The notes beneath the pieces were generated by a model, which saw only the letters and a program-made list of their open reading frames with translations, was not told the origin of the DNA and searched no databases. From Methanomassiliicoccus luminyensis B10 (GTDB taxonomy: Archaea > Thermoplasmatota > Thermoplasmata > Methanomassiliicoccales > Methanomassiliicoccaceae), in NCBI RefSeq assembly GCF_000308215.1, contig NZ_CAJE01000012.1, positions 630,894 through 694,893 of the forward strand: DNA of 64,000 nucleotides. The letters run 5' to 3'. Shown here one piece after another: positions 46,855 through 61,824 of this stretch. A program made the translations under genes and the position numbers. Within the stretch, counting starts at the first letter, position 1; every line of letters begins with the position of its first letter.

Positions 46855-47982
46855 TTACTGCGGCCCCTCGACCACCTTCTTCACGATGTCCAATCCCTTG
46901 ATGATGCTGGCCTCCGACGCCGCGTAGGAGAAGCGCAGGTGGCCTTCCGCGCTGTCGCCGAAAGCGGTCCCGGGGGCGCAAATGACGCCGGCGGCCACCA
47001 GCTTCCTGGCAAGGTCCCGGGAGGGAATGTCCAGGTCGTACGAGGGGAAGGCATAGAACGCGCCTTCCGGCAGGTGGCAGTGGAACCCCTTGATGTCGTT
47101 CAGCATCCTGGTGATGGTGACCCTGCGGCGGTCGAAGGTGGGAAGGATGCCCCGGGTGAACTCTTCCTGAGCGTGGAACACCTTGGCGATGGCGAACTGC
47201 GGCGGGGTGGGCGGGCACGCTACCAGGTGATACTGCATCTTGGCCAGGTCGTTGATGATATCGAGGGGCGCGGTGAGGTATCCGATCCTCCAGCCGGGGA
47301 CGGCGAAGGACTTGGAGAACGAGTTCAGGACCACCGCCCCCTCCAGCACCTCGTTGAAGGAGTGGTGCTTCCCTTCGTATATGAAGTCCTCGTAGACCTC
47401 GTCCGAGATGATCCACAGGTCATGGTCCTGGGCGATGTCCACGAGGGCCTTGAAGTTCTCGCGAGTGAGCACCGAGCCGGTGGGGTTGGAGGGCGAGTTG
47501 ACCACCAATCCCCTGGTCCGGGGGGTGATGGATTCCTTGATGCCCTCGATGTCCGGCTGGAACCCTTTCTCGTCCAGGAGGTGATAGGCCACCGGCTTGG
47601 CATCCGCCAGCACGCTGTCCGGCTCGTACAGCACGAACCCGGGCTCGGGCACCAGCACCTCGTCGCCGGGATCGAACAGGGTCTGGAACGTGGCCATGGT
47701 CCCCTGGGTGCCGCTCGCGGTTATGATGACATTTTCCGCCGTGACGTCCTCGCAGTACTTGCGCACCTTGCCCGCCACCAGTTCCCTGAGCGGGTCGATG
47801 CCTTTGGTCGGACCGTACTTGTTGCGGTCCTGGTCCAGCGCCTCCTTGAGCGCTTCCCTGGCCTCCCTGGGGGGCTCGAAGTCCAATTCTCCCAGACCGA
47901 GGTTTATGGCGTCCCTGCTGGCCATCTCGAAAATCTCCCTGACACCAGATGGCTTGATGCTCTGAACTCTCTTGGAGACCAT
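46855..47982 (-). CDS. Class I/II PLP-dependent aminotransferase
   Basis: 375 residues, fold type I. Shown by NLGLGELDFEPP, SGTQGTMATFQTL, the PLP-contact NSPSNPTGSV, ISDEVYEDFIYEG, the Schiff-base lysine in NSFSKSFAVPGWRIGY, and the carboxylate Arg in LRFSYAAS. Members act on aspartate, aromatic or branched-chain amino acids; specificity is not readable. The ATG 47982 start is chosen because the upstream extension is Ser/Pro-rich and overlaps the probable promoter. Confidence 0.87.
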   Translation of the reverse strand: MVSKRVQSIKPSGVREIFEMASRDAINLGLGELDFEPPREAREALKEALDQDRNKYGPTKGIDPLRELVAGKVRKYCEDVTAENVIITASGTQGTMATFQTLFDPGDEVLVPEPGFVLYEPDSVLADAKPVAYHLLDEKGFQPDIEGIKESITPRTRGLVVNSPSNPTGSVLTRENFKALVDIAQDHDLWIISDEVYEDFIYEGKHHSFNEVLEGAVVLNSFSKSFAVPGWRIGYLTAPLDIINDLAKMQYHLVACPPTPPQFAIAKVFHAQEEFTRGILPTFDRRRVTITRMLNDIKGFHCHLPEGAFYAFPSYDLDIPSRDLARKLVAAGVICAPGTAFGDSAEGHLRFSYAASEASIIKGLDIVKKVVEGPQ

Positions 47983-48104
47983 CGCCCCGGGAAGGTTTAA
48001 CGCAGTCTTATTGGTTTTGTTCAGCGCTGAGGTGAGACCCAGAGGGATCGGCGACGGCGAGGGCTGTGACCTGTCCCCGGCGGACCTGGTCAACAAGTGC
48101 GGCC

Positions 48105-49064
48105 ATGGGCATCATGGGCTCGATTGCCATGTTGGACATCGAAGGGATATACATCAGCGCGGTGGAGAAGGGCGCCGGGAGCACCGTCAGCGTACGGACG
48201 ACGGGGGCCCGGGGAGGGTGCCGGGGGCCGTACTTCCAGCGTTCCGGGGTGGGCTCCGGGATCGTGCTGGACGACCGGGGGCACATCCTCACCAACAATC
48301 ATGTCGTCGCCGGGGCCGAGCGCATCGTGGTGGTTCTGGGGAACGGCAACATCCACGAGGCCAGGGTCATCGGGAGCGACGAGCGGACTGACATCGCGGT
48401 GCTGGGGACCGACGCGAAGGAGCTGGCGCCGGCCGAGCTGGGCGATTCCGACGCGCTGAGGGTCGGGCAGCCCATCCTGGCGATAGGGAGCCCGCTGGGG
48501 CTGGCAGGCGGGCCAACGGTGACGTCGGGAGTGGTGAGTTCGCTGCACAGGAACCTGTGGATGAGCTGCGGGAACGGTCTGAGCGTCATACAGACCGACG
48601 CGCCGGTGAACCCCGGCAACAGCGGAGGCCCCCTGGTCGATCTTTCAGGAAGGGTGATTGCGCTGACGGCGGCACAGGTGCTCTACGCCGACGGAATCGG
48701 CTTTGCCATACCTATCAATCTCGCAAAGAAGGTGTCCGAGCAGATCATACAGCACGGTTCGGTGCGGCGGCCCCGGCTGGGGATAGTGGCCATAGACGTG
48801 CTTCCGCGCATCGCCTACCAGTTCAGGCTCCCCAACACCCTGGGGGTGTTCGTCACGGACGTGCTTCCAGGGAGCGCCGCGGAGGCCGCGGGGCTGCGCA
48901 TCGGGGACGTCATCCTGGCCATCGGCGAGGAGAGGCTGGGCGGAGTTCACGACCTGCTCGCCGCTCTGGGAAAGAGGGAGGTAGGCGCGGCGGTGGAGAT
49001 GGAGGTGAGAAGGAATGGAAGGACCGAACGGATATCTGCTGATCTGGGCGCCAATCCTGACTGA
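48105..49064 (+). CDS. HtrA/Deg-like serine protease with PDZ domain
   Basis: About 319 residues. The trypsin-like triad is visible: His in ILTNNHVVAG, Asp in RTDIAVLG, and Ser in NPGNSGGPLVD. A single PDZ domain follows (GVFVTDVLPGSAAEAAGLRIGDVILAIG). No signal peptide or membrane anchor is evident, so it may act in the cytosol, unlike most HtrA proteins. The start is uncertain: ATG 48105 is my choice; ATG 48114 and GTG 48066 are in frame. Confidence 0.87.
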   Translation: MGIMGSIAMLDIEGIYISAVEKGAGSTVSVRTTGARGGCRGPYFQRSGVGSGIVLDDRGHILTNNHVVAGAERIVVVLGNGNIHEARVIGSDERTDIAVLGTDAKELAPAELGDSDALRVGQPILAIGSPLGLAGGPTVTSGVVSSLHRNLWMSCGNGLSVIQTDAPVNPGNSGGPLVDLSGRVIALTAAQVLYADGIGFAIPINLAKKVSEQIIQHGSVRRPRLGIVAIDVLPRIAYQFRLPNTLGVFVTDVLPGSAAEAAGLRIGDVILAIGEERLGGVHDLLAALGKREVGAAVEMEVRRNGRTERISADLGANPD

Positions 49065-49101
49065 GTCGCGCGCCTGGAAACCTTTCGAGCCCAAGCTCCC
49101 G

Positions 49102-49155
49102 GGCCCCTCGGGGCCGGCGGTCCCGCCGGGGCCTCCCCGCTGAGGTCTCAGCGGG
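49102..49155. repeat. Three adjacent perfect GC-rich palindromes after the HtrA-like gene
   Basis: GGCCCC-TC-GGGGCC (49102-49115), CCGGCGG-TC-CCGCCGG (49114-49129) and CCCGCTGAG-GT-CTCAGCGGG (49136-49155) lie head to tail, then GAGAAACTTTCTT. They may form a composite transcription terminator for the protease gene or a regulatory structure before the next regulator gene. Confidence 0.6.
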
Positions 49156-49199
49156 AGAAACTTTCTTAGGGCACGACGCACGTGAGCAGGACGACGGAT

Positions 49200-49838
49200 A
49201 TGGAAGAAGAGCGCAAGATGGCCGTGGAGGACCTGGGCCTGTCGGCCGATGACCTGCGGGAGACGGACATAGATATAATGCGGTCGCTGGAGGCAGAGGG
49301 CGGCGACGTGGCCTTCCAGGGTCTCCGCCGGGTCACCAACCTGCACCAGGAGACGCTGTCCCGGGCGCTTAAGCGCCTGGAGGAGGACGGCTACGTGAAG
49401 CGGACGCCCCGGGGGTATCGGCTCACCGACGCCGGCTCGCACCTGGCGCAGGGGCTGCTCCTAGCCCCTCCCAAGGCCTACGCCACCGTCTTCCAGTCCT
49501 TCCTCCCCGGCGACGTCGGCCCGGGGGAGCTGGCCGGGCGCCTGGAGGGGAGATGGTTCAACAACCTCCGGTGGCTGGGCATGAGGGAGGACGGCGAGGA
49601 GGCGGTCCTCCGCTGGGTCACCGAAGGGAGTGGGATCGAGATAGTGGTCCGCCTGCGATGGGGGCAGGCCATCGTGGAAACGGATGCCTCCGGCCAGGAG
49701 GAGCTGGTCGAAGCCCTCGTGGCCGCCCAGAGAGTGTTCGGCCACTTGACCGAACAGTGGCGGAACGGGCTGGAGAGGATACCATCAGGCGTGAACCTGT
49801 TGTGGTGGTCCGACCGCGCACCCCGCCCGGCCGGCTGA
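49200..49838 (+). CDS. Winged-helix (MarR/Lrp-like) DNA-binding protein
   Basis: About 212 residues. The N-terminal wHTH spans roughly residues 20-75 (VTNLHQETLSRALKRLEEDGYVKRTPRGYRLTD in its recognition part). The C-terminal 130 residues form an alpha/beta domain I do not recognise. GTG 49182 and ATG 49218 are alternative starts; ATG 49200 is about 35 bp from an AACTTTCTTA tract that may be the TATA box. Confidence 0.7.
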   Translation: MEEERKMAVEDLGLSADDLRETDIDIMRSLEAEGGDVAFQGLRRVTNLHQETLSRALKRLEEDGYVKRTPRGYRLTDAGSHLAQGLLLAPPKAYATVFQSFLPGDVGPGELAGRLEGRWFNNLRWLGMREDGEEAVLRWVTEGSGIEIVVRLRWGQAIVETDASGQEELVEALVAAQRVFGHLTEQWRNGLERIPSGVNLLWWSDRAPRPAG

Positions 49839-49854
49839 GCGCTCTTGCTCGGGA

Positions 49855-50247
49855 TCAGCCCTTGCCCAGAAGCTTGACTTTGATATTGTGGTCTCGGCTG
49901 AAGTGCGCAGCCAGATTGTACGACAGGTCGTCGGCCGCATATCCGCGGACGGACGAGCCGCACACTGGGCAGCGCACCGATTCTGGCACATCCTCCCCCG
50001 GCGGCCTTTCCTCGGGGGACCCATGCCACTCCTGGATGGCCCTCTGAGAATAAGGCAGCGGGGACAGGCCCTCTTCATGCACCTCGCTCCGCCGTTCCTT
50101 CTCCCCCTTTGCCGGGGCGCAGCTAAGGTCGCATAGGTCAGTGAAATTGTGGGCATTGGACATGTGGGCCTGAAGGCCCATGCTGAGATCGAGCTCTCCC
50201 TCTCCGACGATGTTGGTGTTGCAGATGGGACACAGGATCGATACCAT
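49855..50247 (-). CDS. Small protein with two C2H2-type zinc-finger-like units
   Basis: About 130 residues. Two similar units sit at the ends: CPICNTNI...LQAHMSNAH and CPVCGSSV...LAAHFSRDH, each CxxC followed by HxxxxH, linked by a Pro/Glu-rich segment. Likely zinc-binding, perhaps DNA- or protein-binding. ATG 50247 has AAAGGAG upstream; the open frame runs 12 codons further. Confidence 0.68.
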   Translation of the reverse strand: MVSILCPICNTNIVGEGELDLSMGLQAHMSNAHNFTDLCDLSCAPAKGEKERRSEVHEEGLSPLPYSQRAIQEWHGSPEERPPGEDVPESVRCPVCGSSVRGYAADDLSYNLAAHFSRDHNIKVKLLGKG

Positions 50248-50283
50248 GGAAACCAGTCTCCTTTGGCTAACGAGGCAACCCAA

Positions 50284-50800
50284 ATGATGTCAGCTACCAG
50301 CACATAAATATGCTGGCCTGCAACTGAGCTCGGCCTCATCATTCGCTGCATTCGGCTCGCTGACGCGGAGCCTGCCGCCTTCCCGTGCAGAGAAGGCGGC
50401 GATGTTCCCGCTGGCGTTCGAGCCGACGCCAGATCGAGCCCGCACTGGATGCGCATTTGAACTGCCTTCCCGTTCTGCTGACCTAAGACACACTGGCACG
50501 CCTTGTTGACACGTTGCCCGTCTGAACTAGGTCGTCGGTACGTTCCAGGCGTATCTTGACGGTGCGAAACATCTTACCATGCAACGCTATTCCGCTGTTT
50601 ACGCTCGTCACCGCTCAATATGTCTACACAAAGGCGGGTTTCCCGACCTTTCCGACAATACATATTATAAACCGAATACGGGATGAAGTGGCATTGTATT
50701 CGAGATCAGCCACGCACAGCCCCTGCCACCGGCCAGCTGCGGGTACGGGAAAGGACCATACAGATGCGGTTCATACGTCCAGCCATCTTGACAAAGAGGG
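50284..50800. other. Gene-poor interval (about 515 bp)
   Basis: No convincing gene. An ACATATTATAAACC element (about 50657-50672) is a likely promoter for the membrane-protein pair starting at 50801, giving a leader of about 115 nt. A TGGCGT/ACGCCA hairpin lies near 50420-50440. No tRNA or CRISPR pattern found. Confidence 0.4.
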
Positions 50801-51418
50801 ATGGCCGTGCTGACGTTCTCGGCTGCAAGCACGAAGGACCGCCTTATCGCCACCGTCCTGTTCTGCCTGATGGTCGCAGGGGCGGCCCTCACCGTGGCGG
50901 ACATGAACCCGTTCTGGTTCCTAGTGGCGCTGTGGGTACTGGCCATGATCATCGGTGTGACATCTCACAGTGATATAGAGATCACCTTTTCCCTCACATG
51001 CCTGACCGTGGCGGCCCTCCCGTTCGTCATCGGCCTGATAGGGGTTCCCTTCTGGAGCGGACCGTTCTCCATGGACACCTTGGGGTCCAAGCTGCTGCAC
51101 AGCGTCTCTATATTCGCGCTCTGCCTGGTTACCTCGATTTACTTGGGATCGCACACCGCCATGTGCCTGAACCGTCCGTTCATGGTAGGGGTGTCGTTCA
51201 TGCTGTACATGGCGGTGTTCACCATCCTCGGCCCCATAGGGTTCTATGGGGACCTGATCTTCCAGACCAGCCACCTCGCTGACCTCGACATGTTCATGTC
51301 CAACCTGATCATCTGCAGCATCATCGGGCTGGTGCTGGCGCTGACGATCAACCGCCGCTTCCGCCGGCTCGCCTTCTTCTCGGCGCCGGCATCGGCAAAG
51401 GGAGGGGCGTCCCCGTGA
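50801..51418 (+). CDS. Integral membrane protein, unknown function
   Basis: 205 residues with about six hydrophobic helices and a basic C-terminus (NRRFRRLAFF). No family recognised. The stop overlaps the GTG of the next gene (GTGA), so the two are translated together and may form a complex. Confidence 0.7.
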   Translation: MAVLTFSAASTKDRLIATVLFCLMVAGAALTVADMNPFWFLVALWVLAMIIGVTSHSDIEITFSLTCLTVAALPFVIGLIGVPFWSGPFSMDTLGSKLLHSVSIFALCLVTSIYLGSHTAMCLNRPFMVGVSFMLYMAVFTILGPIGFYGDLIFQTSHLADLDMFMSNLIICSIIGLVLALTINRRFRRLAFFSAPASAKGGASP

Positions 51419-52044
51419 ACCGTCTCCTGGCCATGGCCGCAGCGCCCTTCATGGCAGTCCTGGGGATAGGAGTGGTGTTCGGCCTCCTGACCGGCAAAGG
51501 CACCTACATCGCCTCAACCTGCTTCTGGAGCATAGTCATCCTCTCCATCCCCTTGATACTGGACAGGCATGAAAGGGTCACCCTGCCCTGGCCGGTGGTG
51601 CTGTGCGCCGGTATCGCCCTGATCCTGCACGCCATCGGTCTAATCATGGAGATGTACGGGATGTTCTGGTGGGATAAGCTCACCCACCTGGTGTCGGGCA
51701 TCGTGGTGGCATCGCTGGTAAGCCTGGTGCTGCTGGTGATCCTGCATTACTCCAAGACCATCCGTATACCCTCAAAGTGGTTCCCCTTCCTCCTGATAAT
51801 ATCCGTCCTCGCCTTCGAGGGAGTATGGGAGATCCTGGAGTTCACGGTCGACCACACTATGGGCACAGGCATGCAATACGGGTTCGGCGACACCGTCAAC
51901 GACATCACCACCAACCTCATCTCCGGCATACTAGCCGGGTTCGGCGCGTCGTATTTCATCGGCAAGAGCTCCGTTGATAAGATCGTCGAGGGTATGAAGG
52001 TGGAGAAGACCGTCAGGTTCCTCCAGAAGCACGTCGACCGGTGA
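51415..52044 (+). CDS. DUF2238/YjdF-like integral membrane protein
   Basis: 209 residues, six or so helices. The segments MFWWDKLTHLVSG and VWEILEFTVDHTMGTG, followed by GDTVNDITTNLISGILAG, match the DUF2238 (YjdF) pattern of conserved Asp/His/Glu in membrane helices. Function unknown in the family. It starts with GTG overlapping the previous stop and ends in a hairpin terminator. Confidence 0.75.
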   Translation: MNRLLAMAAAPFMAVLGIGVVFGLLTGKGTYIASTCFWSIVILSIPLILDRHERVTLPWPVVLCAGIALILHAIGLIMEMYGMFWWDKLTHLVSGIVVASLVSLVLLVILHYSKTIRIPSKWFPFLLIISVLAFEGVWEILEFTVDHTMGTGMQYGFGDTVNDITTNLISGILAGFGASYFIGKSSVDKIVEGMKVEKTVRFLQKHVDR

Positions 52045-52078
52045 TGCCGTTCGCGCCTTGGGCATCACCAGGTTTTTT
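52040..52078 (+). terminator. Hairpin plus T-tract terminator after the DUF2238-like gene
   Basis: A perfect 9-bp stem GGTGATGCC / GGCATCACC with a 12-base loop, then GGTTTTTT. The stop codon lies inside the stem. Confidence 0.8.
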
Positions 52079-52122
52079 GAACAAGGAACGTGTATAGTCA
52101 TCAAGCTCGGGGAGAAGGACAT

Positions 52123-52758
52123 TTGAACATCATCGACACGATCAACCAATGGGTCATATCCCTCATCGAGACCACCGGGTACCTCGGCATATTCCTCTCC
52201 ATGTTCGTGGAGGGGATATTCACTCCCATACCCAGCGAGGCCATCGTACCGTTCGCCGGCTACCTGGCTTCCACCGGCCAGCTTAACTTGATCCTGGTCG
52301 TTCTGGTGGCTTCGGTGGGGGCGACGGCCGGTTCGACGGTAGCCTACGCCCTGGCGAAGGTCATCGGCCGGACCGCGGTGCTGCGCTACGGCAAGTACTT
52401 CGGGGTCAGCCACGAGACCCTGGGCAAGGCGGACCGGTGGTTCGAGAGGTATGGTTACTGGGGGGTGCTGATCGGGCACTCCATCCCCGGGATAAGGTCC
52501 ATCATCTCCTTCCCTGCAGGTTTGGCCAACATGAACCTGAAGAAGTTCATGGTCGCCACATTCACCGGCGCTTGCATCTGGAACACCGTGCTCACCCTGA
52601 CCGGGTACTTCCTCGGCGAATACTGGGTGGAGTTCTGGGGCGGCCTGGACGGCCTGGACTACTACATACTCGCGGCGGCGGGCCTCGGGCTGGCGGGCTA
52701 CTTCCTGTACAAGAGGTACGGGAAGAAGAGGGGCGTCCAACCGCAAGAGGAAAGTTGA
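52123..52758 (+). CDS. DedA/VTT-family membrane protein
   Basis: About 211 residues. It has classic DedA features: a re-entrant-like N-terminal segment with FVEGIFTPIPSEAIVPFAGYLA, then RYGYWGVLIGHSIPGIRSIISFPAGLANM. Such proteins are linked to membrane potential, phospholipid or polyprenyl-phosphate carrier recycling. I start at TTG 52123 because GGAGAAGGA lies just upstream; GTG 52090 is in frame but without support. Confidence 0.88.
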   Translation: MNIIDTINQWVISLIETTGYLGIFLSMFVEGIFTPIPSEAIVPFAGYLASTGQLNLILVVLVASVGATAGSTVAYALAKVIGRTAVLRYGKYFGVSHETLGKADRWFERYGYWGVLIGHSIPGIRSIISFPAGLANMNLKKFMVATFTGACIWNTVLTLTGYFLGEYWVEFWGGLDGLDYYILAAAGLGLAGYFLYKRYGKKRGVQPQEES

Positions 52759-52820
52759 GATCGGAACTGCTCACGGACCCGCGACGGTCTTGGCGGCACG
52801 AGTTTAGGTGATGGGCAGAT

Positions 52821-53918
52821 ATGGCGGAACCCTGGAAAGCGATGTACGATGAGGCGTTCCTCCGCGGCTTCGGGGAGAGAGTGCGCTCCGCGTACGGCGG
52901 GTTCGATGCCGACGCCTTCGTGGCCGCAGTGACCTCTGGGGAGTGGGGCGGTCTCGAGCTCAAGGCCCGCACCCGGCGGATCGCCGAGGCGCTGGGGAAG
53001 TACCTCCCGCCGCGGTACGAGGACGCGCTGGGAGTGCTGTACGCCGTCGACGAGGATTGCGTCGGCTTCCCCTATCTGTTCTTCCCCGACTTCGTGGCGG
53101 TGCACGGGCGCGGGGAGTGGGATCGATCTATGAAGGCGCTGGAGCGGTTCACCCGGCGCTCGTCGTCGGAGTTCGCTGTCAGGGCGTTCATCATCGATGA
53201 CCCAGAAAGGGCGATGGTGCAGATGATGGCCTGGACCAGGCACGAGGATGAGAACGTGCGCCGGCTCGCCAGCGAGGGATGCCGCCCCCGCCTGCCGTGG
53301 GGAGAATCGCTGCCGATGTTCAAGCGCGACCCCACCCCGGTGCTGGCGGTGCTGGAGAGGCTGAAAGACGACCCTTCCCCGTACGTGCGCCGGAGCGTGT
53401 CCAACAACCTGAACGACATTGCCAAGGACCACCCCGAGGTGGTCCTGGAGCTCGCGGAACGCTGGAAGGGGGCCAGCGAGAGGACCGATTGGATCCTGAG
53501 GCGGGGCTGCCGGACCCTGGTCCGCAAGGCTGAGCCGAAAGCCCTGGAGCTGTTCGGGTACGAGTCGTGCGGTGCGCCACTGGTCTCATCGGCCTCGCTG
53601 ATCGCATCGCCGTCGACCCTGGCGATCGGAGATTCGTGCGAGTTGCGCTACGAGCTCGATGCACGAGAGGGGAAGCCTCTCCGAGCTCGCGTGGAATATG
53701 GGATCTATTTCGTAAAGGCGAGCGGACGAACATCGCGCAAGCTGTTCCTTCTGTCCGACAGGACGGTGCAGGGAGGCGGGCGCATCGCCGGCGAAAGGAC
53801 CCACGACTGGTCCGACCTGACCGTGCGGCGCCACTATCCCGGTGAGCATCGCATCGCCCTCGTGGTGAACGGTCAGGAGGTCGCCGACACCGCTATAATG
53901 CTAGAAAGGCGAGAATGA
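52821..53918 (+). CDS. AlkC-like DNA alkylation repair protein with C-terminal Ig-like domain
   Basis: 365 residues. The first 240 are HEAT-like repeats with the AlkC signatures RRLASEGCRPRLPWGESLPM, then LERLKDDPSPYVRRSVSNNLNDIAKDHPEVV. AlkC/AlkD glycosylases excise alkylated bases such as 3-methyladenine. Residues about 255-365 look like the immunoglobulin-like domain fused to some AlkC proteins. ATG 52821 is likely. Stands alone. Confidence 0.85.
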   Translation: MAEPWKAMYDEAFLRGFGERVRSAYGGFDADAFVAAVTSGEWGGLELKARTRRIAEALGKYLPPRYEDALGVLYAVDEDCVGFPYLFFPDFVAVHGRGEWDRSMKALERFTRRSSSEFAVRAFIIDDPERAMVQMMAWTRHEDENVRRLASEGCRPRLPWGESLPMFKRDPTPVLAVLERLKDDPSPYVRRSVSNNLNDIAKDHPEVVLELAERWKGASERTDWILRRGCRTLVRKAEPKALELFGYESCGAPLVSSASLIASPSTLAIGDSCELRYELDAREGKPLRARVEYGIYFVKASGRTSRKLFLLSDRTVQGGGRIAGERTHDWSDLTVRRHYPGEHRIALVVNGQEVADTAIMLERRE

Positions 53919-54354
53919 CGTGCGAAAGAGGGCGACGCGGGATGAATCTCAACACTTGTTGCTGAAGTTCGAGGAAGGCATTGTCAAGGTCGTCCAGAGG
54001 GCCAAGGAGGTCTGCTTAACATGAGGGAGTCGACGTCCTAAGGAACCTTCAGGTGATGGAGAACATCCATCCCTGGGACCTTTCCTATGACATCATGATG
54101 GCAATAAGGTTCTATCCGATACAGTATTTCGACGCGTTCCTGGAGCGCCCCACCATGTCAAAGCGGCCGACCTCATATCACCAATGATCTGGAGAGCGGG
54201 GCATCGGTCTGCTACGAGCCTTTTGACTGGTGAATGAGGATAGTCCAGGACAGGGGTCTGTATAACCTAACCCCGCCCGACTAGACTATAAATCCCCCCA
54301 GAAAGAGATACCAACGATCAGCATACCGCCGATGAAGGGGAAAGCCCGAGCAAG
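53919..54354. other. Intergenic interval with possible gene remnants
   Basis: 436 bp with no intact gene. Two short open stretches look gene-like: GTG 53930 (VRKRATRDESQHLLLKFEEG..., 34 codons) and the plus-strand stretch beginning about 54056 (MENIHPWDLSYDIMM..., about 43 codons). Neither can be assigned. GC content falls from here on, so this marks the edge of a lower-GC island. Confidence 0.35.
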
Positions 54355-55134
54355 CTAAAGATCGCTCACTATGTCCTTGACCATCAGCTCTGCGGTTGCT
54401 CTTTTCGGCATGATGTCGACCTTGAGGCCATATTCCTCAAGCTTGTCCTTGGTGTCGTTGCTTAAGACAGCGATGGTAACCCCATCTAAGACATCATTTG
54501 CATCCGCGCCTTCAAAACGCTCTTTCAAATGGAAGAAAAAAGCATCGGCATGACTCGGAGTTGCAAACGCCAACGTGCTGACCTCGTTGTCTTCCAACCG
54601 GTCCAGAAGCACCTCCATGTCTTCAGACCTCTTTAGCTGTAGGGAGTACACCGGCACCTCTGTCACATTCCACCCCGCCTCGATCAGGGACGATGGAAGG
54701 AGGCGTGAGCCCCTGTCAGAGCGGAGCAAGGCGATGCTGCCTCTATGCGGCAGCGCGTTTATGTGCTCGATGAGGGAACTGGTAGATGCTTCTGAAGATA
54801 CAGATGGAACTTTCAGTCCGTTCCATTTTGCCGTCTCTGCTGACCGGTCGCCTATCACGATGACCTCGACCTTGCTCATCGACGTTAAGAACCTGTTGAG
54901 CAGTCCACGTTCGATGGCCATGTTGATGGAATGCCTTACCGCTGTAGGACAAGTCAATACCACACAATCGTATTTGGCCAGCGATAGGTCCATAATGAAA
55001 TTGGAAAAAACGGAGTTGTCGATCGGCAAAGATACGAACAGGGGCACAAAGACGAATTCGGCCTTATCGGCATATGGGCGACATATCGGTTCCCAGCCTT
55101 CGGATGGGGCCAGAATTGCCACGCACTTTTTCAT
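54355..55134 (-). CDS. Uroporphyrinogen-III synthase-like protein (HemD family)
   Basis: 259 residues with the two-lobe HemD pattern: AILAPSEGWEPICRPYA, DCVVLTCPTAVRHSI, VEVIVIGDRSAETAKWNGLKV, and the second-lobe RSDRGSRLLPSSLIEAGWNV...VYSLQ. HemD closes the tetrapyrrole ring to uroporphyrinogen III, precursor of corrinoids, F430 and haem. Its location beside a corrinoid-type methyltransferase gene and a regulator suggests a duplicate serving corrinoid supply, but a non-catalytic role is possible. Ends with TAG. TATA box (AGATAAATAAT, 55158-55168) predicts a leaderless mRNA. Confidence 0.75.
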   Translation of the reverse strand: MKKCVAILAPSEGWEPICRPYADKAEFVFVPLFVSLPIDNSVFSNFIMDLSLAKYDCVVLTCPTAVRHSINMAIERGLLNRFLTSMSKVEVIVIGDRSAETAKWNGLKVPSVSSEASTSSLIEHINALPHRGSIALLRSDRGSRLLPSSLIEAGWNVTEVPVYSLQLKRSEDMEVLLDRLEDNEVSTLAFATPSHADAFFFHLKERFEGADANDVLDGVTIAVLSNDTKDKLEEYGLKVDIMPKRATAELMVKDIVSDL

Positions 55135-55385
55135 CGGTTCGCACAGGGGACAGTAAGATTATTTATCTTTCCTTAGGATTACGAAATATAATCGATGTTA
55201 GATTTTTAACATCCGATGTTGCTCCAGGGCGCAAATGAGCTGTTTCGACCTAGCTGCAAGTCCTAATCGTTCTCCGAATCCTTCCGGACACAAAAGGCAA
55301 GAAGATCCATATGGCGATGGGGGACGCTCGAGTTCCATTTGGTCTCCTTGTTTAAATAGGTATATGGAGCTTTATCCGTAGATTT

Positions 55386-56048
55386 ATGCGATCGGCCACC
55401 TTTAGAATTAAAATCCCCGATTTTTGCCGTACATGCATAAACTGCCTTCCGTTCCTTGAAAAGAACAACGTATCCGTAAAGATCCTACGATGCGCCCCGT
55501 TGGGCCCCCATTGCGGTCACAGCCTGTTAAGGTTCGAAGGTGAACCCGAATTATTGGACGAACTCCTTCTGAATCCCTGGGATGTTGCAGCCGATGACAT
55601 GAAGATCGAGGTTGCTAGAACAGGCAATGGGGTTTATTCTGCATTGGTCGTCAACAATAATTGCGAGTTGAGCCACATTATCAACGACTCGGGCTGCTTT
55701 TTAGAATTGGCCATCAAATCGGACGACAACGATGTGGTATTTCATCTGATCGGGACCGACGTAGACTCGATCAACTTATTTCTGAGCTCGGCAAAAGGTG
55801 CGGGGTTCGACGTGCGCGTCGTAAGTGTCTATGAAAAAAGGACTTGGGGAGGCCTCACATACCGGCAGGAAAAGGACCTGAGGATAGCCTTTGAATCTGG
55901 CTATTACAATATACCGAGCCAGATCACCCTGGAAGATCTGGCCAACAAGATGGGGATATCCAAATCGACCCTCAACATCACGCTCAGAAGAGCGGAACGA
56001 AAGATCATTTCCGACCATCTGACCAACTCTGAGGCAAATCAACGATAG
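55386..56048 (+). CDS. Bat-type (HTH_10) transcriptional regulator with Cys-rich N-terminus
   Basis: 220 residues. The C-terminal 55 residues are a bacterio-opsin-activator HTH: LTYRQEKDLRIAFESGYYNI, ITLEDLANKMGISKSTLN and LRRAERKII. The N-terminal part has clustered cysteines (FCRTCINC and LRCAPLGPHC), which could bind metal or sense redox, then an alpha/beta region. TTTAAATAGG (55351-55360) lies about 31 bp before the ATG. It faces away from hemD and precedes the acetate-transporter and methyltransferase genes, which it may control. Confidence 0.8.
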   Translation: MRSATFRIKIPDFCRTCINCLPFLEKNNVSVKILRCAPLGPHCGHSLLRFEGEPELLDELLLNPWDVAADDMKIEVARTGNGVYSALVVNNNCELSHIINDSGCFLELAIKSDDNDVVFHLIGTDVDSINLFLSSAKGAGFDVRVVSVYEKRTWGGLTYRQEKDLRIAFESGYYNIPSQITLEDLANKMGISKSTLNITLRRAERKIISDHLTNSEANQR

Positions 56049-56392
56049 ACATGTATGCGGCCTCGAGCGATGCAGATCACAAAAGCAATTCGATCCATGA
56101 CATTGATAATCCTAGACATGCCGTGTCAAGATGTCCAGCCTTCGGCCCCGGCCTGAAATAGTTCGTTGACGATGACAGTACCCTGACTTTTCGTTGCTAT
56201 GAAAATACCGACCACATAACTGTGATATCGGCTTTTGATTCATATATGAATCTAAATTAGATCATCTGGCATTTTGCCAGACTACTCGGCCGACATGTAC
56301 GACGATAGTTATAATAAGACTCTATCGAAGATGTTCGTCGTTTTAAAATTGTAGCCATGCACCGATAGGCCTTCAATCGGAAGGTTGATGAA
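56049..56392. promoter_or_regulatory. Intergenic region with palindromes upstream of the acetate transporter
   Basis: 344 bp, AT-rich. It contains a perfect 16-bp palindrome (GATTCATATATGAATC, 56237-56252), an inverted repeat TCTGGCA-TTT-TGCCAGA (56265-56281), and CGATAG/CTATCG arms flanking a GTTATAATAAG TATA-like box (about 56308-56318). These are candidate operator or terminator elements. Confidence 0.5.
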
Positions 56393-57004
56393 TTGTCATC
56401 TGAGAAATTAGGAAATGCTGGAGCTCTCGGCCTTTGCGCCTTTGGTCTTACGACCCTGGCCCTGATGCTTCACAACAACGGGCTGTACGGCATGAACACC
56501 ATGATCCTCGCTATGGGCATGTTCTATGGCGGGATCGTTCAGCTTCTCGTGGGAGCTTTGGAGTGGAAACATGGCAACACCTTCGGAACTGTCGCCTTCG
56601 CCTCTTACGGAGCATTCTGGCTCTCATTCTGTTTCATGTTAATGCTCCCAGCATTTGGGCTCGCCGCTCCCGACGCTGCGGCGGTAGGCTGGTTCATGGC
56701 TTTGTGGACGGTGTTCACCTTCGCCATGTTCGTGGGCACTCTCAGGATCGCAAAGGCCTTGCAGCTTGTGTTTGGACTTGGTACGATCGGTTTCGCCCTG
56801 CTGGCTTTGAACGACCTCACCGGCATAGAGGTGCTTGGCGACATTGCCGCAGTGGTTGGCGTGCTCCTCGGATGCTCGGCACTCTACGCTGGCCTGGCAG
56901 AAGTGCTGAACGAGGTGTATGGAAAGGTCATCCTGCCCATCGGGCCCGTGGTCCACGCGGAGCCTAGACCAAAGCAGGACTCGCCTACCTCGCCGAATGA
57001 CTGA
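56393..57004 (+). CDS. Acetate uptake transporter (GPR1/FUN34/YaaH family)
   Basis: 203 residues with six membrane helices. Family pattern: GNAGALGLCAFGLTTLALML (the AceTr NPxPLGL-like start, altered here), MFYGGIVQLLVGALEWKHGNTFG, FASYGAFWLSF. Members move acetate or succinate; an acetate requirement for carbon assimilation would make sense in a methylotrophic methanogen. The start is TTG 56393 behind GGAAGGTTGATG; no ATG fits the frame upstream. Confidence 0.85.
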   Translation: MSSEKLGNAGALGLCAFGLTTLALMLHNNGLYGMNTMILAMGMFYGGIVQLLVGALEWKHGNTFGTVAFASYGAFWLSFCFMLMLPAFGLAAPDAAAVGWFMALWTVFTFAMFVGTLRIAKALQLVFGLGTIGFALLALNDLTGIEVLGDIAAVVGVLLGCSALYAGLAEVLNEVYGKVILPIGPVVHAEPRPKQDSPTSPND

Positions 57005-57112
57005 GGTTGGGTCCGATAATCCGACCCCCGCCCCTAGGGAGAGGGGGACATACCCCAACCATGTGGTCCACCATTGAACGAACAGAGCGTAGAGAAAAAG
57101 GTGATTAGGTCA

Positions 57113-58213
57113 ATGATACACGAATCAGAAAAACAAGCATACACAGGACATCAGACAGTTGCACGTAAGCACGATCTCGGGCACAGAGCACAAGTTGAGA
57201 TGGCCTTGAACTTCGAGAAGCCGTATCGGACGCCAGTACAGAACTTTTCCAACATCACCGCAGTCCATAGCGGCGGATATCAGTTCAAGGACGCGCGCAC
57301 AAATGCGACCCTATCGGCAAAGCTGGCTCTGAGATTTGCCAAGCTCACTCACTCGGATTTCGTCAAGCCAGCCCTGGATACCAATGGGCAGTTGATCGAT
57401 ATCGGGCTGAACATTAAACAGCCAGACGACAACTACGGTCGGGCCGTATCATCGCTTATCAACGAACCCGAGGATGTGGATCGGCTCGAACTGTATGATC
57501 CGTTCAACCCGAAAGAATGCCCCTATTTCACAAAGGGGTTTGTGGAGAACATACGGATGGTCTCCGACACCATGGATGAGGATTTTCATGTTCTCGGCAT
57601 GTCCTGGGGCCCGTTCACCACCGCCGCCTACATACGGGGTGCGGAGAACATCATGATGGACATAAATCTCGATCCAGACCTTATCAAGAAGCTCGTGGCC
57701 AAAACTGCAGAGTTCTGCGAAAGAATACAGATGAGGTGCATTGATGCCGGCGCTACCGCTCTGTGGATGTCAGACCCAACAGCCTCGGAGGACATGATAT
57801 CGACCGACATGTACCGTGAATTCGCACTGAAAGGGACCAAGCGTGTCTGCACCAATGTGAAGAAGGAAACCAAGGTACCCATATTCGTCCACATGTGTGG
57901 AGAATCTTCGGAAACAATGCAGCTATTGCCGGATGCCGGCGTTGAATGTTTCAGTTGCGATTCCAAGGTCAACCTGGCAATTGCCAGGAAGAACATCGGG
58001 AAAAAGATGGCCATTATGGGCAATATCGATCCCGTGAGGGTCTTGTGGCAAGGTACCCCCCAGACCATAAGGGACACTGCGTTCAAATGCATAGATGATG
58101 CGGGCCAAGAGGGCGGGTTCATCCTTGCGCCTGGGTGTGAAAGTCCCAGGGACTGCAGCGACGAGAACATGATCGCCATGGGCATGGCAGGAATCGACTA
58201 TTGGATGAGATAG
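57113..58213 (+). CDS. Uroporphyrinogen decarboxylase-fold methylcobamide:CoM methyltransferase (MtaA/MtbA-like)
   Basis: About 366 residues. The URO-D fold with the zinc ligands typical of MtaA/MtbA/CmuA: H-x-C in IFVHMCGES and a distal Cys in LAPGCESP. In methylotrophic methanogens such enzymes move the methyl group from a corrinoid protein to coenzyme M. No corrinoid protein or substrate-specific methyltransferase is in this window, so the partner is unknown. ATG 57113 has GGTGAT 8 nt upstream; TTG 57074 is in frame but lacks a ribosome site. A terminator follows at 58226. Confidence 0.8.
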   Translation: MIHESEKQAYTGHQTVARKHDLGHRAQVEMALNFEKPYRTPVQNFSNITAVHSGGYQFKDARTNATLSAKLALRFAKLTHSDFVKPALDTNGQLIDIGLNIKQPDDNYGRAVSSLINEPEDVDRLELYDPFNPKECPYFTKGFVENIRMVSDTMDEDFHVLGMSWGPFTTAAYIRGAENIMMDINLDPDLIKKLVAKTAEFCERIQMRCIDAGATALWMSDPTASEDMISTDMYREFALKGTKRVCTNVKKETKVPIFVHMCGESSETMQLLPDAGVECFSCDSKVNLAIARKNIGKKMAIMGNIDPVRVLWQGTPQTIRDTAFKCIDDAGQEGGFILAPGCESPRDCSDENMIAMGMAGIDYWMR

Positions 58214-58225
58214 GGTTGACGCAAC

Positions 58226-58280
58226 GCACCAGGGATGCATGGACCTATGGCGATATCCTTGGTGCCCCTCTTCATTTTTT
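58226..58280 (+). terminator. Hairpin plus T-tract terminator after the methyltransferase
   Basis: An 11-bp stem GCACCAGGGAT / ATCCTTGGTGC (one G-U pair) with a long loop, followed by a run of six T at 58275-58280. Confidence 0.7.
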
Positions 58281-58568
58281 AGCCAGTGTTTTGTCGGCGC
58301 ATCCTGAGGCGCTGCAGCATTCACCTCATTGGCGTGGTGCAAAGGGCAGGTTTGAATTGGGGTGCCCTCGATAGAGTAGCTCGCCATTCTGGAGCGCCTT
58401 GTCCACACCCAGTGGCTAATCATATCAACAACACAACCTGGAGAGCGAGATTGCCGGTATGACGCTACGAACCTTGGCTAGTGAACGGCGGCCTAGAGCA
58501 GGACGCAGATGCGGCGTCGATCTTTATCGTGTAGCCATATTGGGCGGGATGGCATATCCTGTCGGGGG
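58281..58568. other. Intergenic interval without recognisable gene
   Basis: About 290 bp with no gene or element I can support. It may hold decayed 5' sequence of the adjacent pseudogene. Confidence 0.4.
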
Positions 58569-59250
58569 GTGGGCAAGCATGAAGGCATAGGCATACAGTC
58601 AAGCCCCCGGGGCAAGAACAGCAACACCCTCCGGCTGCTGAACGCGGCGTTGGAGGGGTCGCGCAAAGCAGGCACGGAGGCCAAACTCGTTGACATCACC
58701 AAGATGAACACCAGGTACAGCACCGGTGCCAGTACTGCCGCCGGAGCGGCAAGTGCAATATCAAGGACGATTACCTCCACCCTGCTGAAGAAGATGCTAG
58801 CCGCGAACGGCATCTTATTGAGCGGTCCGAACTACATGTCCCATGTCACCGCCCAGCTGAAGACAGTACTGGGCCGCAGCGTCAACGTGGAGCATGAGCA
58901 GTACCTCGCCGGCAAAGATGGCTTCTTAATCATGACCGCCGGCGGGGGTGTGAGAAGCTGTTGCTGGGCTACATGAATGGCTTCCTGAGGGAATCGGGAG
59001 CGTTCGCGGTCGGAGGCGTCGGCCATTTGCTGAACCGCGGGCCGGAGGCATGAACGAGGCGGTCAAGCGCTCGCAGGACATGGGCCGCGACAGGCGGGAG
59101 CGATCAAGGAAAAGCTGATCCTATTCAGAGCAGGTCGAGGAGCATGAGGCCTGGAGGAGGGGGTTCGCGAGGACCATCAGGACCAATGAAAAGACCTGGA
59201 GCCATAACTATGAGATCCGGGTCAAGAAGGGATGGGTGGGGCCTCAGTAG
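58569..59250 (+). pseudogene. NADPH-dependent FMN reductase (flavodoxin-like) pseudogene with several frameshifts
   Basis: Pieces of one protein appear in order in different plus-strand frames. They are IGIQSSPRGKNSNTLRLLNAAL (58585 on), then CQYCRRSGKCNIKDDY after a shift near 58710, NGILLSGPNYMSHVTAQLK after another near 58785, and CEKLLLGYMNGFLRESGAF after a third near 58945. NEAVKRSQDMGRD and EQVEEHEAWRRGFARTI follow after further shifts, ending at TAG 59250. The family uses FMN with an iron-sulfur or flavin partner (iron-sulfur flavoprotein-like Cys set CxxC...C). So many breaks over 680 bp indicate decay rather than one sequencing error. Confidence 0.8.
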
Positions 59251-59269
59251 AGAAACCATTAATCGCGGC

Positions 59270-60442
59270 ATGGCCGTTCCACCATCGATGGGCGTGAAAC
59301 TAGGATACAGCGACAGGTCCCGCCTCGTCGTTCAGTCGGAGATCAGGAACATGACCCTGGAATGCAACAGGGTCGGGGGGATCAATCTCGCGCAGGGCGT
59401 GTGCGATCTTGATGTGCCCCAAGTGGTCATCGAATCCGCGTACGAGGCGATGAAGCAGGGAACGAACCAGTACACCAGGTACGACGGGCTGCCCATCATA
59501 AGAAAAGCGATCGCGCACAAGTTCAAGACCTTCAACCACGCGGACATCGACCCGGAGAAGAACGTCGTCGTCTCCGCCGGCGCGACCGGAGCGTTCTATT
59601 CGGCCTGCCTCGCGTTGCTGAACCCCGGCGATGAGGTCATTGTGTTCGAGCCGTTCTACCAGTACCATGTGAACACGCTGCTGGCCGTCGGTGCTGTTCC
59701 GAGATACGTTAGCATGAAGACGCCCGAGTGGACCATCGACATGGATGAGGTTAGGTCCGTGATCACCCCAAGGACCAAGGCGATGATCATCAACACGCCC
59801 GGCAACCCGTCAGGCAAAGTGTTCACCAGGAAAGAGCTGGAGGAGCTCGGTTCCATATGCGAAGCAGCGGACATCTTCCTGTTCTCCGATGAGATCTATG
59901 AGTACTTCGTCTACGACGGCCTGGAGCACGTCAGCCCGTGGTCGATACCGTTGTTGAGGGAGAGGACCATCGTCATCTCCGGTTACTCCAAGACGTTCTC
60001 CATCACCGGGTGGAGGCTTGGCTACTGCGTGTGCGGCGAGCGCTGGGCGCAGATGATCGGGTACATGAACGACTTGGTGTACGTGTGCGCACCGGCACCG
60101 TTGCAGGTCGGCGTGGCCGAGGGCATCATGAGGCTGCCGCCGAGCTACTACGAGAACATCGCCAGAACGTACCAATATAAGAGGGACGAGATGATCTCTT
60201 CCCTCCGTAGCGCGGGCATGGAGCCGTACGTGCCTCGGGGGGCGTATTACATCCTGGCGGACGTGACCAACGTGCCCGGTAGAACGAGCAAAGAGAAGGC
60301 GCTGCGTATACTGAAGGAGAAGAATGTGGCATCGGTGCCGGGATCGGCGTTCTACTCGAACGGAGGAGGGGAGAACCTGGTCAGGTTCTGCTTCGCCAAG
60401 AGGGACGAGGTGCTGAGTCGAGTGTGCGCATGCCTGAAGTAA
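59270..60442 (+). CDS. Class I/II PLP-dependent aminotransferase
   Basis: About 390 residues, fold type I. INLAQGVCDLDVP, SAGATGAFYSACLALL, NTPGNPSGKVFT, FLFSDEIYEYFVYDG, the PLP lysine in SGYSKTFSITGWRLGY, and the carboxylate Arg in NLVRFCFAK. Resembles the aspartate/aromatic aminotransferase subgroup; substrate not readable. The frame runs upstream to 59144, but that part overlaps the pseudogene, so I start at ATG 59270 (59288 also possible). GC content returns to the high value from here. Confidence 0.87.
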   Translation: MAVPPSMGVKLGYSDRSRLVVQSEIRNMTLECNRVGGINLAQGVCDLDVPQVVIESAYEAMKQGTNQYTRYDGLPIIRKAIAHKFKTFNHADIDPEKNVVVSAGATGAFYSACLALLNPGDEVIVFEPFYQYHVNTLLAVGAVPRYVSMKTPEWTIDMDEVRSVITPRTKAMIINTPGNPSGKVFTRKELEELGSICEAADIFLFSDEIYEYFVYDGLEHVSPWSIPLLRERTIVISGYSKTFSITGWRLGYCVCGERWAQMIGYMNDLVYVCAPAPLQVGVAEGIMRLPPSYYENIARTYQYKRDEMISSLRSAGMEPYVPRGAYYILADVTNVPGRTSKEKALRILKEKNVASVPGSAFYSNGGGENLVRFCFAKRDEVLSRVCACLK

Positions 60443-60537
60443 TGAGGTAGATTGGGATGCGGCAACAGATGCACATTCGAAAAAAAATCCCGCTGTAAGA
60501 TTTTTTAATATTTTTTTAGAAATTTTAGAATCCAAAG

Positions 60538-60646
60538 TGCGAGGGGCCGGATTTGAACCGGCGGACCTCTTCAGGAACAGATCTTGAGTCTGTCGCCTTT
60601 GGCCGATGAGTGTGAGTCATCATTGACCTGGCTTGGCTACCCTCGC
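60538..60646 (-). tRNA. tRNA-Leu(CAA) with a predicted D-loop intron
   Basis: Minus strand. The acceptor stem is GCGAGGG/CCCTCGC with discriminator A and no encoded CCA. The anticodon arm is ACAGA-CTCAAGA-TCTGT, anticodon CAA (codon UUG). A variable arm (TCCTGAAGAGGT) marks class II tRNA-Leu, and the T arm is GCCGG-TTCAAAT-CCGGC. The D arm is interrupted; removing 60599-60622 restores a normal GCCAAGCCAGGTCAAAGGC. The mature tRNA would be 85 nt. Confidence 0.93.
60599..60622 (-). other. Predicted 24-nt intron in the D-loop of tRNA-Leu(CAA)
   Basis: The flanks fold as a bulge-helix-bulge motif. The exon strand GGTC pairs with the intron strand GGCC (4 bp), with a 3-nt bulge AAT at the 5' junction and AAA at the 3' junction. 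The intron closes as GATGA-CTCACAC-TCATC. Cutting after the second base of each bulge gives exon ends ...GGTCAA and AGGCG..., near positions 21/22. The fit is exact, but splicing is unproven. Confidence 0.85.
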
Positions 60647-60675
60647 GGTGATGGACTTTCGTAAATACCATGCAC

Positions 60676-60683
60676 ATATTAAA
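60676..60683 (-). promoter_or_regulatory. TATA box of tRNA-Leu(CAA)
   Basis: TTTAATAT on the minus strand about 34 bp upstream of the tRNA 5' end. A T-run on the minus strand at 60480-60487 may end the transcript. Confidence 0.5.
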
Positions 60684-60933
60684 CCTTGCTTAGCCCAGAT
60701 TTATACCGTTTGTGGACCGGAATCTACACGGAGAATACATCCAGACGTTTTATTCATAGTATATTATGGTTGGCGAAGTATTTTATATTCATAATTCCAT
60801 TTACGTCCGCCTGTGCAAGCAGGCACGGGAGGGGTGCAGAACGACCTCGCCATTTCCTCCAGATTCGAACCACCCACAGATTCTTTAGAGGTGGCACCTC
60901 TCCCCCTCAACGTCCGCTACTTGATTTCATGTC

Positions 60934-61824
60934 TCATAGCGTCGTCACTGTCGCTTTGCCGTTGGAGACCGCCACGGTATGCTCGGTCTGCGCCACCATG
61001 CCTCCCCTGACCTCAGAGAGCATGGGGTACGCGAACAGCAGGCCGTGCCGGACCAGCGTCTTCAGGTGAATGGGCGCCTTGGAATCGAGCTTGGTGCACC
61101 AGCGCTCGCAGAACGGCAGCGTGCCGAAGTTCTCCTTCAACAGGCGGAAATGCTCAGCGGCCTTCTCGTCCCGGAGCTCCCGGTCCCGCATGATGCGGTA
61201 GATATTGCCGTGCTTGGAGTTGCGCACCTCGCCGGCGCCGTTGGTGGAGAACGGCTCGATGGCGAGGATCATGTCCTTCCCGACCCTGGTGAGATTGCCG
61301 TCGTCGTAGTTGGCGACGGAAATGCCTGCGTGCAGGTTGTACTGCTGCATGCTGTGCCCGGTGAGGTTCGTCACCGGCAGGTAGCCGTTGCTCTTGACGC
61401 CACGCTCTATGGCGCCACCCAGAGCGCCGATCGGAACGCCCTCGCTGACGATCTCGATGGCCATCCCCAGCCCTTTCGCGGACGCGTCGATCAGGGGGCC
61501 CCAGTTCCTCGTGCCCACCTCCACCGTTTGCGCTGTATCCCCGATATAGCCATCCACGTGCGCTCCGACATCCACCTTCACCAGGTCGCCCCGGCTGAAC
61601 TTCAGCTCGTCATTGGTGCTCGGCGAGTAGTGCGCGGCGACCTCGTTGATGCTGATATTGGTCGGGAATGCCGGCTTCGCCCCCCTCTTCTCGATGAGGG
61701 CTTCCACCTCCTCGGCCACGCTCAGCAGGCTGACGCCCTCCCCGACCATGCCTGCACCGAGCAAGCGCGCTTCACTAGCAATGGCGCCGGCCCTCTTCAC
61801 CTTCTCGAGGACCTCGTCATTCAT
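60934..61824 (-). CDS. map: Methionine aminopeptidase, type II
   Basis: 296 residues, pita-bread fold. The metal ligands are visible: Asp in VDVGAHVDGYIGD (two), His in NLTGHSM, Glu in AIEPFST, and Glu in VAQTEHT. The type II insert is present between the His and first Glu. Removes initiator methionine. Its ATG overlaps the stop of sua5 by 8 bp, in an operon with sua5 and an MBL-fold hydrolase. Confidence 0.94.
   Translation of the reverse strand: MNDEVLEKVKRAGAIASEARLLGAGMVGEGVSLLSVAEEVEALIEKRGAKPAFPTNISINEVAAHYSPSTNDELKFSRGDLVKVDVGAHVDGYIGDTAQTVEVGTRNWGPLIDASAKGLGMAIEIVSEGVPIGALGGAIERGVKSNGYLPVTNLTGHSMQQYNLHAGISVANYDDGNLTRVGKDMILAIEPFSTNGAGEVRNSKHGNIYRIMRDRELRDEKAAEHFRLLKENFGTLPFCERWCTKLDSKAPIHLKTLVRHGLLFAYPMLSEVRGGMVAQTEHTVAVSNGKATVTTL

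Follow-up and report, generated by a model that had tools for sequence, protein, structure and literature searches.

A relocated four-gene cassette of Methanomassiliicoccus luminyensis B10 with a putative HTH_10 regulator and an operator-like palindrome

Gene content, composition and synteny of the cassette

We analysed a window of 64,000 nucleotides from Methanomassiliicoccus luminyensis B10 (NZ_CAJE01000012.1, our contig C12, positions 630,894 to 694,893; the genome has 2,620,233 bases in 26 contigs), and in it the GC-poor stretch 53919-59250, which a preliminary description made from the letters alone had presented as an accessory island. Four genes form its core. A HemD-like protein of the HEM4 family (54355..55134, minus strand; PF02602, 108.7 bits against a cut-off of 27.5) is encoded divergently from an HTH_10 regulator of the Bat/NarO/DmsR type (55386..56048, plus strand; PF04967, 66.9 bits, cut-off 23.1), which is followed on the same strand by an acetate(-succinate) transporter of the SatP/AceTr family with a TTG start (56393..57004; NF038013, 199.4 bits against an equivalog cut-off of 50) and by an MtaA/MtbA-like zinc methyltransferase of an orphan subfamily (57113..58213; PF01208, 200.7 bits, scored on a longer frame). 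These Pfam and NCBIfam assignments agree with the genes that had been called by reading. The long intergenic gaps noticed earlier are there too: 251 and 344 bp between the HemD, HTH_10 and SatP genes, and 436 bp to the left of the HemD gene.

Upstream of satP lies an imperfect palindrome, CGAAgATGTTCG (56326..56337), one mismatch away from CGAACATGTTCG; the aligned satP upstream regions of the cassettes share a conserved block that holds it. A TATA-like box read from the sequence (ttataataag, 56309..56318, plus strand) precedes it, with TTATAA at the aligned place in three relatives (G009, G007 and G013), and a weaker second operator-like site, CCGACATGTACG (56290..56301, 3 mismatches), precedes both the box and, by 36 bp, the main site. 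The candidate palindromic operator, together with the pairing of regulator and methyltransferase genes described below, is new and goes beyond the earlier reading of the locus.

The stretch differs visibly in composition from its surroundings. Plotted in 1-kb steps, GC is 48-57% over 54-59 kb against 57-67% over 44-54 kb; the whole 5,332 bp have 52.5% GC, compared with a genome sample mean of 60.4% (standard deviation 4.0). Codon usage follows the same line, GC at third codon positions (GC3) being 0.60-0.69 in the four cassette genes (ranks 28-55 among 201 sampled open reading frames, ORFs) versus 0.83-0.87 in the flanking HEAT-like, aminotransferase and MAP2 genes. The dip is thus real but not exceptional: among 300 overlapping stretches of equal length, drawn from a 400-kb sample of the genome, 15 are as GC-poor or poorer, which places it within the genome's own range, and the four-gene core, at 50.8% GC, is equalled by 12 of 340 sampled stretches.

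The four genes keep their order and orientation (HemD-like minus; HTH_10, SatP and methyltransferase plus) in two relatives, G009 and G007, among other neighbours, and of the four G013 holds only the SatP and methyltransferase genes. A methyltransferase of >80% identity was found in 3 of the 60 relatives searched, with the whole cassette in two of these three. The cassette is GC-poor there as well, forming a clear trough in G007 and lying in G009 inside a GC-poor zone that extends leftward over further genes. The window proteins are 73-76% (HemD, against G009 and G007), 66% (HTH_10), 79-81% (SatP) and 81-84% (methyltransferase) identical to those of the relatives, a span of 66-84% that overlaps the 53-78% of neighbouring core genes in the same comparisons. 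Because these identities resemble those of core genes, the cassette appears to be about as old as the split of the genera.

In the window, AAT1 (46855-48096) and MAP2 (60934-61824) enclose 12.8 kb. In all six g4 relatives the two genes lie only 2.8-6.5 kb apart, and no match to the window genes between them, the cassette included, was found at that place; in five further family relatives with MAP2, AAT1 was off the stretch fetched, and three relatives gave no MAP2 match. The block is therefore far from syntenic in all relatives, and the region that varies (48097..60933, about 48.1-60.9 kb) is wider than the composition boundary, which does not mark its edge. Since the gene order is kept among other neighbours and the divergence is about that of core genes, we take the stretch to be an old Methanomassiliicoccaceae cassette that has changed its chromosomal place rather than a recent foreign island. 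This bears out the 'reshuffled methylotrophy-support module' of the preliminary description. Its other term, 'acquired', holds only in part: acquisition in a recent sense found no support.

Regulator, methyltransferase and palindrome

The HTH_10 domain occupies the C terminus of the regulator (residues 157-208 of 220) and is the only Pfam domain seen in it at E values up to 0.001, with neither PAS nor GAF. The protein resembles in this NarO of Haloferax volcanii and DmsR of Halobacterium salinarum, Bat-like regulators without PAS and GAF domains (PMC11218638). The 15 listed haloarchaeal plasmid homologues are 28-33% identical to it over 56-65% of the query. We collected its top 59 matches in 147 genomes, leaving none out; these loci come from related genomes and are not independent, and several are cut by contig ends, so that the counts of 40 and 23 loci given below may be low. 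In the 58 relatives that could be aligned (one locus gave no sequence long enough), Cys36 and Cys93 are present in 58, Cys104 in 54 and Cys17 in 45, which suggests a metal, heme or redox sensor.

A URO-D/MtaA-type methyltransferase gene lies within 2.5 kb of the regulator relative in 40 of the 59 loci. By comparison, 6 of 283 ORFs sampled from the M. luminyensis genome alone, called mechanically and including some wrong frames, are equally near to such a gene. The pairs are convergent in 28 of the 40 cases, 26 of these with a gap of 46-113 bp. Seven partners were scanned, and the score for methylcobalamin:coenzyme M methyltransferase was reached in four (L087, L077, L096 and L088) and missed in three (L054, L036 and L091). 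A gene for one kind of MFS carrier is found in 24 of the 59 loci. Locus L159 (genome G137, another family) shows satP and a methyltransferase gene paired independently: its regulator is encoded divergently from a satP-mtaA pair. Four loci (L036, L145, L147 and L148) hold a distinct class of URO-D methyltransferase, divergent from an HTH_10 gene; aligned, these four have H (three) or N (one) instead of C at the second zinc position.

The cassette methyltransferase probably starts at ATG 57113 rather than at TTG 57074. Its best solved relative is MtaA (4ay7, E 9.3e-16, over residues 54-356 of 366), with which the H-x-C...C zinc ligands align. A tree of 70 related proteins places it apart from MtaA, in a clade with 28 members from three families of the order; all 28 rows keep these ligands. 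It thus shares with the MtaA/MtbA methylcobamide:coenzyme M methyltransferases the URO-D family, the zinc ligands and the match to 4ay7, but differs from them in its separate clade, its scores below the cut-offs and the lack of a recognisable linked corrinoid protein or MtaB. Relatives of it in loci L038, L032 and L041 are likewise under the curated cut-offs, and a look by eye through the printed ORFs of eight f1 and f2 loci recognised no corrinoid partner beside its relatives. Judged by these comparisons, it is best called an orphan MT2-like enzyme.

SatP, for its part, matches the solved SatP structures 5ys3 (E 4.9e-51) and 5zug (E 5.2e-48) closely; what sets it apart from other SatP/AceTr transporters is the setting of its gene, preceded by an operator-like palindrome and followed in line by a methyltransferase gene. 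The HemD protein is one of two matches in the genome, the other being C12:54679-55386. It has the HEM4 domain of uroporphyrinogen-III synthase over most of its length but is a second copy, linked to a regulator, and stays below all nine equivalog cut-offs listed (best 91.1 against 246). In locus L077 (genome G038), homologues of the HemD protein and the regulator (53 and 56% identical) and an mtaA gene stand between cobalt transport genes (CbiM, CbiQ and ATPase) on one side and, on the other, a second HemD that adjoins an amidotransferase of the CobB/CobQ type; by virtue of these neighbours the locus ties this kind of HemD, as far as gene context goes, to corrinoid supply.

With up to one mismatch, CGAACATGTTCG occurs at two places in the window, where 0.12 are expected. 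One is the site before satP; the other, exact, at 22009-22020, was considered as an operator and set aside, since it lies inside an isopropylmalate dehydrogenase-like gene and was taken as coding sequence. In genome G027 (L208) an exact palindrome likewise lies inside an isopropylmalate dehydrogenase-like gene. Across the regulator loci, 23 of the 59 have the palindrome (0-1 mismatch) before the regulator, methyltransferase, MFS carrier or satP gene. In the 132 upstream regions (up to 210 bp, set from the ends of tblastn matches rather than from annotated starts, and with a site between divergent genes able to count twice) it is exact in 30 and within one mismatch in 42, whereas each of 59 control palindromes of the same letters reaches at most two of the 132. 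Counted by gene, sites within one mismatch precede 17 of 24 MFS, 4 of 4 satP, 11 of 40 methyltransferase, 10 of 60 regulator and none of 4 HemD genes, some of the regulator sites being shared with a divergent MFS gene. Ten whole genomes hold 16 exact sites, 11 of them at a regulator locus and all 11 in the six genomes chosen for carrying the site, versus none for the reversed-pattern control.

The M. luminyensis genome has 12 places with CGAACATGTTCG at up to one mismatch. They include the cassette satP promoter and an MFS-mtaA promoter (both with one mismatch) and a place just behind another HTH_10 gene on contig C14; eight of the rest, the exact one among them, are inside ORFs of at least 90 codons, and one is outside such ORFs. 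Two satP copies from elsewhere in the genome, checked for the palindrome, lack it (4 and 5 mismatches at best), so control through the palindrome would be special to the cassette copy. Paired sites 36-40 bp apart, one of them often weaker, recur in seven loci (L033, L038, L077, L087, L089, L094 and L163). The second site of the cassette has 2 mismatches in G009, 37 bp upstream, and in G007 nothing better than 5 mismatches is listed there. G013, whose cassette has no regulator, has no site better than 3 mismatches. The recognition helix goes with the site: SKS[T/S] is found in all 23 regulators that have an upstream site, against 18 of the 35 that lack one. In seven loci (L036:5019, L066:1480, L092:9884, L147:3074, L148:3075, L177:2490 and L184:3061) the palindrome, with 0-1 mismatch, stands about 15 bp or less behind the matched end of the regulator; these belong to other HTH_10 subgroups and do not lie before a promoter.

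The same element is already known from haloarchaea. In Haloferax mediterranei an identical 12-mer was identified 66 and 69 nt ahead of the nor and nos start codons (66-79 nt across nor, nos and nir) and altered by mutagenesis. Most changes lowered the activity of the nor and nos promoters; the decrease seen for nir did not reach significance, nor did the response of nar, whose diverged motif is 319 nt away (PMC10062603). Two Bat-like regulators of this species, likewise of the kind free of PAS and GAF domains, have been proposed for denitrification (PMC11218638). The promoters of genes beside our regulator carry a CGAAYATDKTYG-like element: where the loci examined here have a site, it is the 12-bp palindrome of the haloarchaeal denitrification promoters, mostly some 40-100 bp before the gene, and the cassette has the full palindrome with one mismatch. 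Both sets of genes serve anaerobic energy metabolism, but the candidate targets here encode methyltransferases, MFS carriers and acetate transporters in a methanogen, a use of the operator that our literature search did not find in print.

A candidate circuit and its alternatives

In our favoured reading, which we hold with moderate confidence, the cassette is old and relocated and its HTH_10 regulator binds CGAACATGTTCG-type palindromes and thereby controls a satP-methyltransferase unit. By analogy with the haloarchaeal systems we infer a NarO/DmsR-like circuit in which satP and the methyltransferase gene are probably switched by the adjacent regulator via a short DNA signal. A small regulator of the NarO/DmsR kind with an N-terminal set of cysteines would bind palindromes of the CGAACATGTTCG form around the satP promoter, and so govern a transcription unit to which both genes are predicted to belong. 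SatP would take up acetate, the organism's main carbon source, and the methyltransferase would take its methyl group from a methyl-corrinoid protein and pass it to a thiol, most likely coenzyme M. Additional uroporphyrinogen III for corrinoid synthesis may come from the divergent HemD paralogue; this role is the weakest link of the explanation because no operator stands before HemD. Acetate supplies about 84% of the cell carbon of M. luminyensis (PMC5688252), so it is reasonable that acetate uptake and methyl transfer should be controlled jointly: carbon and energy supply would be switched as one.

Several observations weigh against such a circuit. No upstream site within one mismatch was found in 36 of the 59 regulator loci, and 19 of the 59 regulator relatives have no methyltransferase nearby, some of these stretches ending early. 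The four whole genomes not chosen for carrying the site (G000, G023, G029 and G027) have no exact site at a regulator locus, and a further check of three g4 mtaA loci gave 2-mismatch sites at two of them and no site below 5 mismatches at the third. The methyltransferase misses the cut-offs for MtaA/CmuA (TIGR01463; 163.2 against 235.4, on the longer frame), MtaA (123.5 against 400) and MtbA (150.5 against 600), and no corrinoid-protein gene was recognised beside it. In four genomes checked, all sites in the HemD-HTH_10 intergenic region have at least 4 mismatches, and HemD may therefore be no more than a neighbour. The best site of the cassette lies downstream of the TATA-like box and the weaker one upstream, whereas by eye many of the f2 rows have a TATA-like stretch after the site, so that one mode of action does not fit both; the boxes were called by eye, and a strict pattern gives 9 matches upstream and 10 downstream of the site in 37 hand-picked rows. 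Three haloarchaeal plasmid homologues aligned lack the conserved cysteines; none of them is NarO, on which they have no bearing. The structure model of the regulator is of low confidence (pLDDT 56.6) and too poor to search with; the succession of strands and helices in it recalls two ferredoxin-like units, a likeness on which we do not rely. In H. mediterranei, finally, 83 promoter regions carry the motif, and no regulator of it has been proven; the authors leave the point open (PMC10062603).

LexA-type proteins also use CGAAC...GTTCG half-sites. The palindrome might then belong to some other DNA-binding protein, such as a general redox or stress regulator, with the HTH_10 gene a mere neighbour, as the loci without an upstream site and the seven with a site just behind the regulator gene would allow. 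We think this improbable, given that the site goes along with the regulator in three families of the order, precedes the regulator's own gene in a sixth of the upstream regions counted for it, is no better than a 3-mismatch site where the cassette lacks the regulator, and goes with one form of the recognition helix; in haloarchaea, too, the element is discussed together with Bat-like regulators (PMC10062603, PMC11218638). Rather unlikely, in our judgement, is a methyltransferase that is no methanogenic MT2 and carries out another methyl transfer or a tetrapyrrole chemistry of the uroporphyrinogen decarboxylase kind beside HemD. The missed MtaA and MtbA cut-offs, a match to the hemE profile as well (71.6 bits, cut-off 302.95) and relatives in other families with no obvious partner gene speak for it; that the clade keeps the zinc ligands of MtaA throughout and that MtaA is the best solved relative of the enzyme speaks against it.

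It also seems doubtful to us that the stretch is a low-GC island acquired recently from a GC-poorer lineage and not yet ameliorated. Such an origin would account for the low GC and GC3 and for the patchy distribution, and the M. luminyensis methyltransferase is as close to that of G013 (84.1%) as G013 is to its genus mates (83.8 and 83.0%); a 16-nt direct repeat with 2 mismatches, possibly due to chance, lies near both ends of the variable region (48077-48092 and 60558-60573). We set recent acquisition aside as the leading explanation, however, since divergence overlaps that of core genes and equally low GC is not rare elsewhere in the genome. The 20 ORFs scanned in and around the variable region showed no integrase or transposase family, and the window gave no tRNA or Rfam match. 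An attachment site was sought too, but the window showed no tRNA and only short, imperfect direct repeats.

Returning to control by the HTH_10 regulator, we see about an even chance that it extends to an order-wide Methanomassiliicoccales regulon, in which a cysteine-bearing NarO/DmsR-like regulator senses a redox, metal or corrinoid signal and acts through CGAACATGTTCG on mtaA, the linked MFS carrier and satP. If so, the element that haloarchaea use for denitrification genes would control the entry of methyl groups into methanogenesis, the control of the two processes would be linked through one operator, and this operator would either predate the split of the two archaeal lineages or have been adopted along with the regulator. 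Msr regulators, of another family, control methanol methyltransferase genes in Methanosarcina. A literature search, which left subscription journals mostly outside, found no paper naming a transcription factor for Methanomassiliicoccales methyltransferase genes. A growth study of M. luminyensis presupposes that methylamine use has a regulatory network (PMC5688252), and a regulator belonging to a different family, arCOG01345, has been suggested in another methyl-reducing methanogen (PMC5852551). With a defined 12-bp operator and a likely regulator next door, the control of methyl-reducing methanogenesis, a source of gut and rumen methane, becomes directly testable.

The surrounding variable region

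The GC-poor stretch is one piece of a larger patchwork. The HEAT-like gene has no match in 16 relatives. The aminotransferase (59270-60442) has its best relative, at 65%, in another family (G016, f3) and relatives of about 30% in its own, and is perhaps also a newcomer. In G001 (L139:14222-15219), one of the five family relatives whose stretch has MAP2 but not AAT1, relatives of the DedA protein (67%) and of the zinc protein (44%), encoded in the window at 52090-52758 and 49855-50283, are neighbours some 4 kb from MAP2, and the left portion of the variable region may therefore be older there, or ancestral. In G002 (L130:9334-10362) a transposase-like ORF, identified by reading, lies directly beside MAP2, the junction that is variable in the window.

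At the left edge of the GC-poor stretch, 53919..54354 is decayed or non-coding, with no match among the loci compared and no Pfam family above cut-off. A 28-nt direct repeat (79%), possibly a chance occurrence, joins it (54090-54117) to the methyltransferase gene (57648-57675). At the right edge a decayed flavoprotein gene had been described, and a remnant of an NADPH-dependent FMN reductase does lie there (58509..59137, plus strand, the right end set from broken frames; PF03358, 48 bits), with only its first part, 58509-58976, in an open frame. Elsewhere its seven best matches reach 27-33% identity, and the top one (33%) lies in a frame of 217 amino acids. In L080:11411-13359, read from the sequence, a HemD paralogue is followed by an FMN reductase and a corrinoid adenosyltransferase-like gene, an arrangement that may bear on the flavoprotein remnant beside the cassette.

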